Positions 20,624-21,636 of a stretch of DNA of 41,848 bases are shown here, piece by piece. Numbering within the stretch: the stretch's first letter is position 1; every line of letters starts with the position of its first letter. Made by a program: the position numbers and the translations under genes. Under the pieces are notes generated by a model that saw only the letters and a program-made list of their open reading frames with translations, did not search any database and was not told the DNA's origin. This DNA is from Verrucomicrobiota bacterium (GTDB taxonomy: Bacteria; Verrucomicrobiota; Verrucomicrobiia; Limisphaerales; JACQFS01): contig JACQFS010000063.1 in NCBI GenBank assembly GCA_016199935.1, forward strand, positions 1-41,848, in the 5' to 3' direction.

Positions 20624-20789
20624 AGTTTCAATTCAGAGTCGTTTCCAAAAATGTCCGCGGAGTATGCGAAGGGGCCGGGGCTGGTGCAAGTGCGGAGAGA
20701 GGAGACGGAAGCTGAGGCATGAGTGGCGCGCCCCCACGGCGAGACGTTCATCAGAAAACGTCGACAACTCGGTCAGCGCGGGAAAACCG

Positions 20790-20816
20790 TTGACGGTCAA
20801 ACAGGTGGTTTGTAAC
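20790..20816 (+). promoter_or_regulatory. Possible promoter of the tRNA-Asn locus
   Basis: TTGACG at 20790-20795 with TGTAAC at 20811-20816 (spacer 15, shorter than ideal) precedes both the first tRNA remnant and the intact tRNA, so one transcript would carry both. The -10 box is weak. The 20624-20789 stretch shows no gene. Confidence 0.35.
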
Positions 20817-20834
20817 TTGCGCGCCCGTTTGCGT

Positions 20835-20898
20835 TCCAGAGCAACTCAATGGTGGAGTCCCGACGGAGTCGGGATTAACCGTGGGTGGTGAAGGTTCG
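20835..20898 (+). pseudogene. tRNA-Asn remnant 1, palindrome replacing the anticodon arm
   Basis: TCCAGAG, CTCAATGGT, TAACCGTGGG and GAAGGTTCG match the intact tRNA-Asn in order, but the D-stem 3' side and anticodon half are replaced by TCCCGAC-GGA-GTCGGGA (20858-20874) and the 3' end is missing. The 17-base string CCGTTTGCGTTCCAGAG is shared with the intact copy (20825-20841 and 20904-20920), so the 5' flank was duplicated too. No anticodon remains. Confidence 0.85.
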
Positions 20899-20913
20899 TC
20901 AGACCGTTTGCGT

Positions 20914-20988
20914 TCCAGAGTAGCTCAATGGTAGAGCACGCGGCTGTTAACCGTGGGGTTGAAGGTTCGAGTCCTTCCTCTGGAGCCA
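20914..20988 (+). tRNA. tRNA-Asn (anticodon GTT)
   Basis: A complete cloverleaf. Acceptor TCCAGAG pairs with CTCTGGA, the discriminator is G and CCA is encoded (20986-20988). The D stem is GCTC/GAGC; the anticodon stem CGCGG/CCGTG contains one G-U pair and the loop CTGTTAA carries anticodon GTT at 20946-20948; variable loop GGGTT; T stem GAAGG/CCTTC with loop TTCGAGT. A run of seven T follows and may end transcription. Confidence 0.96.
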
Positions 20989-21001
20989 TTTTTTTCCTGC
21001 C

Positions 21002-21274
21002 ATGTTCCACGTTTAGGTTCTGCAAAACCCGCAGGGAAAGTTCTACATTGGCCAGACCGACAATCTGGCGGTCCGCCTAGCCAATCACAATCGAACGGAC
21101 CTCATCGGGGGGCATTTCACTCGCAAATGCGGTCCGTGGGAACTGGTCTGGTCTGAGGCGCACCCCACGCGTGCGGCGGCAATGGCGCGGGAACGGGCGA
21201 TCAAACGGATGAAGTCCGCGCGCTGGATTCGCGACCAACTCCTCAATGGTGGAGTCCCGACCAGTCGGGATTAA
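21002..21274 (+). pseudogene. GIY-YIG nuclease (YhbQ/UPF0213-like), broken by a nonsense codon
   Basis: Starting at the ATG at 21002 the frame reads MFHV, then TAG (21014-21016), then VLQNPQGKFYIGQTDNLA and continues without another stop to TAA at 21274. The TAG replaces the Tyr of the GIY half-motif by one base change (TAC or TAT to TAG); FYIG is the YIG half. RLANHN, GPWELVWSE and the C-terminal RERAIKRMKSARWI are typical of small stand-alone GIY-YIG proteins. Total length about 90 codons is normal. No alternative start precedes the motif. The last codons (NGGVPTSRD) are encoded by the neighbouring tRNA remnant and its palindrome. It lies 13 bp after the intact tRNA-Asn. Confidence 0.85.
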
Positions 21275-21322
21275 CCGTGGGGTTGAAGGTTCTCCCGACC
21301 AGTCGGGATTCCTCTGGAGCCA
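21242..21322 (+). pseudogene. tRNA-Asn remnant 2, with two palindromes in place of arms
   Basis: CTCAATGGT, TAACCGTGGGGTTGAAGGTTC and TCCTCTGGAGCCATTT are as in the intact tRNA. Between the first two is TCCCGAC-CA-GTCGGGA (21255-21270) in place of the anticodon half, and between the last two the same palindrome (21293-21308) replaces the T loop and stem. The 5' acceptor strand is missing; the nuclease reading frame runs into this remnant instead. Confidence 0.85.
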
Positions 21323-21432
21323 TTTCTTCTTCGCGGCGACCTCGCCGGGGCTGCTTGCGCGTGGAATTTCCCTCTCAAATATTTTTTTTGACTGGACCGC
21401 CGTTGTCCAGGGGGGCGTGCCAGGATGCGGGC

Positions 21433-21636
21433 ATGAAAACTGAAAAAACATCCTGCCGTTCCCACCGCGTCTCCACCATCGCCCGCTTCGGCGCGGCACA
21501 CCTCTGCTCCGATGAGCGGGGCCGTGTCCATCTCCGGGGCGGTTCGAACGAGGAGCGCGTCGAGGCGCTGGAGTTTGTCTCGCTGTTCCTGCACGAGGTG
21601 GCGGTGGACACGAATTCGCGCCCCGGGGTGAATTGA
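21433..21636 (+). CDS. Small conserved-looking protein, function unknown
   Basis: A 67-residue ORF with ATG at 21433. It begins MKTEKTSCRSHRVSTIARFG, then LCSDERGRVHLRGG and EERVEALEFVSLFLHEV, giving a compact beta-then-helix layout, without a signal peptide or membrane segment. No family is recognised. It lies 38 bp before recC in the same direction. An AT-rich tract and CTGGAC/GTCCAG inverted repeat (21392-21410) precede it. Coding status is moderately supported by its composition and by the lack of a competing gene on the other strand. Confidence 0.5.
   Translation: MKTEKTSCRSHRVSTIARFGAAHLCSDERGRVHLRGGSNEERVEALEFVSLFLHEVAVDTNSRPGVN

Follow-up and report, generated by a model that had tools for sequence, protein, structure and literature searches.

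How does an intact tRNA gene come to lie between two damaged copies of itself, with a nuclease gene running into one of them? The question is raised by a tRNA-Asn locus in the window (the whole stretch of DNA analysed here, 41,848 nt). A preliminary description of this DNA had listed a remnant of the tRNA, the intact tRNA-Asn, a GIY-YIG nuclease gene and a second remnant, in that order, and had placed the start of the nuclease gene 13 bp past the end of the tRNA and its last codons (NGGVPTSRD) inside the second remnant. Each of these parts was found where it had been placed (Table 1). Overlooked were the palindromes in both remnants and a stop codon at codon 5 of the nuclease gene.

The tRNA-Asn locus and its nuclease gene

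As whole features, the upstream remnant extends over 20835-20897 and the downstream remnant from about 21240/21242 to 21322. Both have GGTGGAG where the intact tRNA-Asn has GGTAGAG, a shared substitution that had been pointed out previously, and 20845-20864 is identical to 21242-21261 (20/20 bases). The upstream remnant and the intact tRNA had also been credited with a common flank of 17 bases; 10 of these are true flank, and the other seven are the first bases of the tRNA. The only other related tRNA match in this genome (G000) is a tRNA-Met. The arrangement is not due to chance: the tRNA copies in the window are matched down to E = 1e-8 within 3.3 kb, and dozens of genomes have the same architecture.

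Table 1. Positions of the features at the tRNA-Asn locus of the window
Feature	Position	Strand	Remark
Upstream remnant, tRNA-Asn positions 1-23	20835-20857	+	91% to tRNA over 33 nt, including the 10 nt flank 20825-20834
Palindrome TCCCGACGGAGTCGGGA replacing tRNA positions 24-33, upstream remnant	20858-20874	+	
Upstream remnant continued, tRNA positions 34 to ~55, degenerate	20875-20897	+	
Intact tRNA-Asn(GTT)	20914-20988	+	Sole tRNA-Asn detected in the 5.03 Mb draft genome
GIY-YIG nuclease gene, 90 codons + TAA, probable pseudogene	21002-21274	+	~72% identity to the intact G029 protein
In-frame TAG, codon 5, at the conserved first GIY tyrosine (catalytic)	21014-21016	+	
D-arm piece CTCAATGGTGGAG of the tRNA in the downstream remnant, within the coding sequence	21242-21254	+	
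Palindrome TCCCGACCAGTCGGGA replacing tRNA positions 24-33, downstream remnant	21255-21270	+	
Downstream remnant, tRNA positions 34-55	21271-21292	+	100% identity to the intact tRNA
Palindrome TCCCGACCAGTCGGGA, second copy, T-loop of downstream remnant	21293-21308	+	
Downstream remnant, tRNA positions 62-75 including CCA	21309-21322	+	

The palindrome of both remnants is perfect, TCCCGAC-N(2-3)-GTCGGGA, and takes the place of part of the anticodon arm. Three of the five such palindromes in the whole of G000 are at this locus. When the window stump was folded as RNA, it gave a very stable hairpin (z = -4.5), as is expected from any perfect palindrome pair, and we do not read this as a sign of an RNA function. 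Another G000 palindrome (L010, G000:C156:21437-21452) is intergenic and lies beside GGTGGAGCGAG on the opposite strand, which bears a loose likeness to the GGTGGAG of the remnants.

The nuclease ORF matches Pfam PF01541 (E = 3e-12). Read through, it gives MFHV*VLQNPQGKFYIGQTDNL...LLNGGVPTSRD*, and its last codons, LNGGVPTSRD, cross the D-arm remnant and the palindrome. As the TAG falls on the codon for the catalytic tyrosine, the window copy has probably been inactivated; its dN/dS against the G029 copy is 0.16. A second copy, L048, belongs to a different clade and has independently acquired a TAG at the same tyrosine codon, which is either coincidence or a favoured form of inactivation.

A group I intron, or the remnant of one, with a homing endonuclease in the anticodon loop is scarcely credible as the source of this arrangement. 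Introns are known from the anticodon region, and PMC3984707 cites the endonuclease of the cyanobacterial tRNA-fMet group I intron, which is directed at the anticodon region, as specific for it (Bonocora and Shub 2001). Conserved genes as targets, and the anticodon region of tRNA-fMet in particular, would indeed be common ground between the window family and free-standing or tRNA-fMet intron homing endonucleases. However, an Rfam search of 20700-21450 matched only the tRNA and returned no group I intron even at E<=1, the intact tRNA is uninterrupted, and the unit consists almost entirely of ORF and tRNA repeat. Unlike the intron system, in which the tRNA is restored by splicing, the window appears to owe its complete tRNA to duplication.

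Recurrence beside tRNA genes

A GIY-YIG search of 97 relatives, and then of 384 genomes of the class, mostly draft MAGs, returned approximately 130 matches. An intact tRNA lies within 400 bp of 68 of the 120 that were tabulated, a set that omits the weakest matches and some without a tRNA (L017, L019, L023 and L026). The tRNA is upstream on the same strand in 64 cases, downstream on the same strand in three and on the opposite strand in one, and 33 of the GIY-YIG matches start within 60 bp of a tRNA end. Among random positions in the same loci only 4/988 were near a tRNA; the association is far above chance, as the preliminary description had required of its own reading. Other GIY-YIG clades of the same genomes served as an internal control, and neither a clade of 16 rows (L068-L138) nor one of seven (that of L054) ever adjoins a tRNA.

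Partial copies of the neighbouring tRNA were found at 40 or more GIY-YIG loci. Within the class, the tRNAs with remnants are mostly Asn, fMet, Pro, Ser and Lys, and the same arrangement was seen in Planctomycetota with tRNAs Val, Cys, Pro and Asn. A small unit with the appearance of a mobile element is present across Verrucomicrobiota and Planctomycetota. A scan of genome contigs added five relatives, all distant. A query of viral contigs with a single protein returned no match, and phages gave three weak ones. A role in defence was considered and not adopted, as the PADLOC matches were marginal and local. A literature search, which is far from covering subscription journals, turned up no publication that describes GIY-YIG/tRNA units in bacteria.

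GIY-YIG homing endonuclease-type domains with an intact active site are present in the family (PF01541, E = 4e-17), the window copy lacking the first tyrosine. The GIY-YIG tyrosines, R25, H29, E64 and K68 are kept, with rare exceptions, in 34 uninterrupted copies. Pairs of units in genus g134 have dN/dS values of 0.06-0.26, apart from one very close pair with few changes (0.57), and the unit nuclease genes are under purifying selection. A structure model (mean pLDDT 81.5) has the GIY-YIG fold, and its best PDB match is 1zg2, the UPF0213 protein BH0048 (E = 9.8e-4), followed by the GIY-YIG domains of Slx1 and UvrC. UPF0213/YhbQ-type proteins and these domains share fold and size with the unit nuclease; we know of no description of them with tRNA stumps or palindromes. 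No separate DNA-binding domain is evident in the protein of about 90 aa.

Units, palindromes and empty sites

Usually, the intact tRNA is followed after 10-60 bp by the GIY-YIG ORF, and this by a few tRNA bases, the palindrome and the 3' part of the tRNA to CCA. Each unit has one ORF, for a single-domain GIY-YIG nuclease of about 90 aa, and terminates on the right with a short stretch of host tRNA and a perfect palindrome in place of part of the anticodon arm. On either side of the unit lies a direct repeat of the 3' part of the tRNA, and units measure mostly 302-390 bp from repeat to repeat (about 300-390 bp overall). In mirror-type loci (L050, L078, L106, L152 and L154), a promoter, tRNA 5' part and palindrome precede the ORF and the intact tRNA, and it is the promoter and 5' part that are repeated. 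Both kinds of stump are found together in the window and at L038, L060, L066 and L125, and one tRNA copy remains intact at the unit loci. Tandem arrays include two identical 323 bp units in G029, two 302 bp units each in G248 and G216, and three diverged copies in G427, while L016 has three extra 60 bp units that contain the palindrome and no ORF.

The 3' ends of tRNA genes are classical integrase sites, and integrase-type elements leave 3' repeats there, which would make the GIY-YIG gene a passenger beside an ordinary att-site scar. This origin is very improbable: units of 302-390 bp with one ORF leave no room for an integrase, and no recombinase lies between the repeats, only the one short ORF. 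Moreover, the same ORF family is found at dozens of sites, and the repeats contain palindromes and have their start at the anticodon or in the T-arm.

A palindrome with a stem of at least 6 was found in 51/62 remnants, compared with 4% of control windows and 2/62 shuffled sequences. Its site varies, at tRNA positions 24-33 or 40-47. The same palindrome is on the 5' and 3' remnants of one locus at L125, L066 and L045, and extra copies are in D- and T-loops at L070, L107 and in the window. At two tRNA-Ser loci, L046 and L060, the remnants are interrupted at the anticodon by long nested palindromes of approximately 60 bp.

In a tree built from 125 GIY-YIG proteins (80 columns), many forks of which lack resolution, the 48 loci with tRNA copies require eight changes of tRNA isotype, compared with a mean of 24.35 and a minimum of 20 after shuffling. 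The palindrome arm is TCCCGC in 10/11 members of the Met clade, TCCCGA in 8/8 of Asn clade 1, GTCGCC in 3/3 of the Pro clade and CCCCGA in 2/2 of the Lys/elongator-Met clade, and in Asn clade 2 it is TCCG[CT]C. With clades assigned by reading the tree, arm similarity was 0.90 within and 0.56 between clades, a difference reached by none of 5000 shuffles, and the arm tracks the nuclease clade across host families. As isotype and palindrome arm are both sorted by clade, we conclude that nuclease, target and palindrome travel together. A host-wide repeat was rejected as the identity of the palindrome because G000 holds so few copies and the arms track the nuclease and not the host.

The palindrome could instead be the active end of the element, a clade-specific hairpin recognised by the GIY-YIG nuclease, with movement of the REP/IS200-605 type or otherwise hairpin-based and not by homing repair. 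We regard this as doubtful. It would suit arms that follow the nuclease and neither host nor isotype, the occurrence of one palindrome on 5' and 3' remnants alike, the extra copies in D- and T-loops and the 60 bp units of L016. Like REP/RAYT and IS200/IS605 elements, the units have short, perfect palindromic ends specific to a nuclease clade. However, a GIY-YIG enzyme takes the place of the HUH/Y1 transposase, Pfam and Foldseek searches having matched only GIY-YIG-type families and no HUH/Y1 transposase, and the units are always tied to tRNA sequence. In addition, the direct repeats are tRNA homology of variable length and not fixed short duplications, and the position of the palindrome shifts. 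A tentative version, to which we give a little more weight, is a palindrome-ended, tRNA-restoring transposon-like system, in which the nuclease would recognise its own clade-specific palindrome as a DNA hairpin or cruciform and transfer both the palindrome and tRNA sequence to the anticodon arm of tRNA genes, sister families inserting exactly after CCA.

Presence and absence of the unit were seen at a single site, the tRNA-fMet beside a glutaredoxin-like gene in genus g134. The site is empty in G232 (L183), with neither palindrome nor stump, and is occupied at L187, L181 and L180. Relative to L183, the single unit of G270 (L187) is a 302 bp insertion flanked by a 34 bp direct repeat that corresponds to tRNA positions 48-75 plus trailer. 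There is one unit in G315 and there are two in G216, the ORF is truncated in G387, and in G306, which lacks the ORF, tRNA and promoter are inverted. The flanks of G216, G315, G306, G232 and G387 share 93-97% identity. Remnants track the presence of GIY-YIG genes, as the preliminary description would predict, with this one clear congener site that has neither unit nor remnant. As empty sites could also arise by precise loss through recombination between the tRNA repeats, the g134 site may record a loss as well as a gain. A tRNA-Asn locus in G205 was not counted as the empty counterpart of the occupied one in G427 as an assembly gap falls inside the tRNA. At L182, L184 and L186 in g134, the tRNA-fMet and its own promoter are inverted relative to the neighbouring gene; the g134 inversions were perhaps produced by recombination between inverted stumps.

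At L060, the acceptor halves of the two stumps, GGAGGGG and CCCCTCC, pair with one another, in contrast to GGAGAGG and CCTCTCC in the intact tRNA that they flank. The stumps are therefore two halves of a single, different tRNA allele, in keeping with the replacement of a resident tRNA by an incoming one. If the GIY-YIG gene were instead a beneficial or neutral host gene, co-transcribed with the tRNA and acting on it or its precursor, the stumps would have arisen by ordinary tandem duplication. A start codon often 10-20 nt past the tRNA, nearly always on the same strand, would agree with this, and isotype-specific clades suit an enzyme that acts on that tRNA. Nevertheless, we consider a host gene unlikely, as its presence is patchy and polymorphic within one genus, pseudogenised copies exist, and neither palindromes nor the allele-mismatched stumps of L060 are expected from simple duplication.

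A probable homing-like origin of the locus

The window locus is, we think, quite likely a decayed copy of a minimal, homing-like mobile unit, one that enters tRNA genes and leaves the tRNA restored. The earlier proposal of a small mobile unit that pairs a GIY-YIG gene with tRNA sequence and restores a working tRNA, like a homing element, is supported: the unit carries such sequence and leaves a complete tRNA. Cleavage by the nuclease and homing are inferred from sequence comparisons. The ORF would be transcribed by read-through from the tRNA promoter, as the spacing between ORF and tRNA suggests. The nuclease would then cleave tRNA genes of its isotype that lack the unit, within or close to the anticodon arm, a target location suggested by the loss from the stumps of positions 24-47, the isotype-specific arm. 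Repair templated by an occupied copy, with tRNA homology on both sides, would copy in the unit of ORF, tRNA part and palindrome; the incoming tRNA part would complete the host tRNA and the old end would stay as a stump. Marked by its palindrome, the stump would escape targeting, or the palindrome would act as a docking or end signal for the nuclease, or both, so that it may be a protective scar or an enzyme docking site. Repeated breaks and recombination between repeats would generate tandem arrays, inversions and stumps; the arrays and inversions, like the truncated copies, are a hint that unit loci do keep breaking. In the window, the nuclease would later have lost its catalytic tyrosine codon to TAG. 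Against homing, the intact tRNA of an occupied site seems no less open to cleavage than an empty site, which leaves the usual self-immunity without an account. The interruption of the window copy and the small size of a nuclease in which no DNA-binding domain is evident also weigh against it.

The closest parallel is with the mobile ORFs (mORFs) of fungal mitochondria, which form hybrid genes in Allomyces atp6 and in Glomus atp6, atp9, cox2 and nad3 (PMC3630166). There, a C-terminus has been inserted ahead of a LAGLIDADG or GIY-YIG ORF (GIY-YIG in Glomus atp9), and the native end lies downstream; endonuclease-driven mobility of the fungal elements was shown biochemically (PMC3630166). The bacterial units likewise have an endonuclease ORF after a replacement gene end, with the native end displaced (including the acceptor mismatch at L060), are intronless and occupy essential genes. 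In contrast to mORFs, their target is a bacterial tRNA, they are several times smaller, they include mirror (5') types and their stumps carry clade-specific palindromes; moreover, their mobility is proposed from sequence. As they reside in tRNA genes of bacterial chromosomes and not in fungal mitochondrial protein genes, we describe them as working like mORFs and not as members of that class.

If this reading is correct, homing that replaces gene ends, as described in fungal mitochondria, would extend to bacterial RNA genes, and the small GIY-YIG ORFs next to tRNA genes would be accounted for. Nature would also offer clades of nucleases that seem to be specialised for particular tRNA isotypes, and a testable question would follow, namely how a target-sparing element avoids cutting itself and what part the palindrome plays. 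Essential bacterial tRNA genes would also house mobile units that look autonomous and are, as far as we know, among the smallest, each consisting of a nuclease gene of about 90 codons and borrowed tRNA sequence.

Other GIY-YIG groups were seen near tRNAs. Members of a class II clade (L098, L100, L112, L114, L115, L122, L123, L128, L129 and L131) follow tRNAs of many isotypes at a distance of 90-290 bp, and their units begin exactly after CCA with NCCTTCGCY. In L112, the left end is present in tandem, following a TGGTCCACCA repeat. A third group (L021, L052, L057, L071 and L073) has TTCGAC directly after the tRNA CCA, on the same strand and 119-286 bp before the ORF; L087 has CTCGAC. When class II was pooled with the TTCGAC group, there was no sorting by isotype (19 changes vs 20.3 shuffled).
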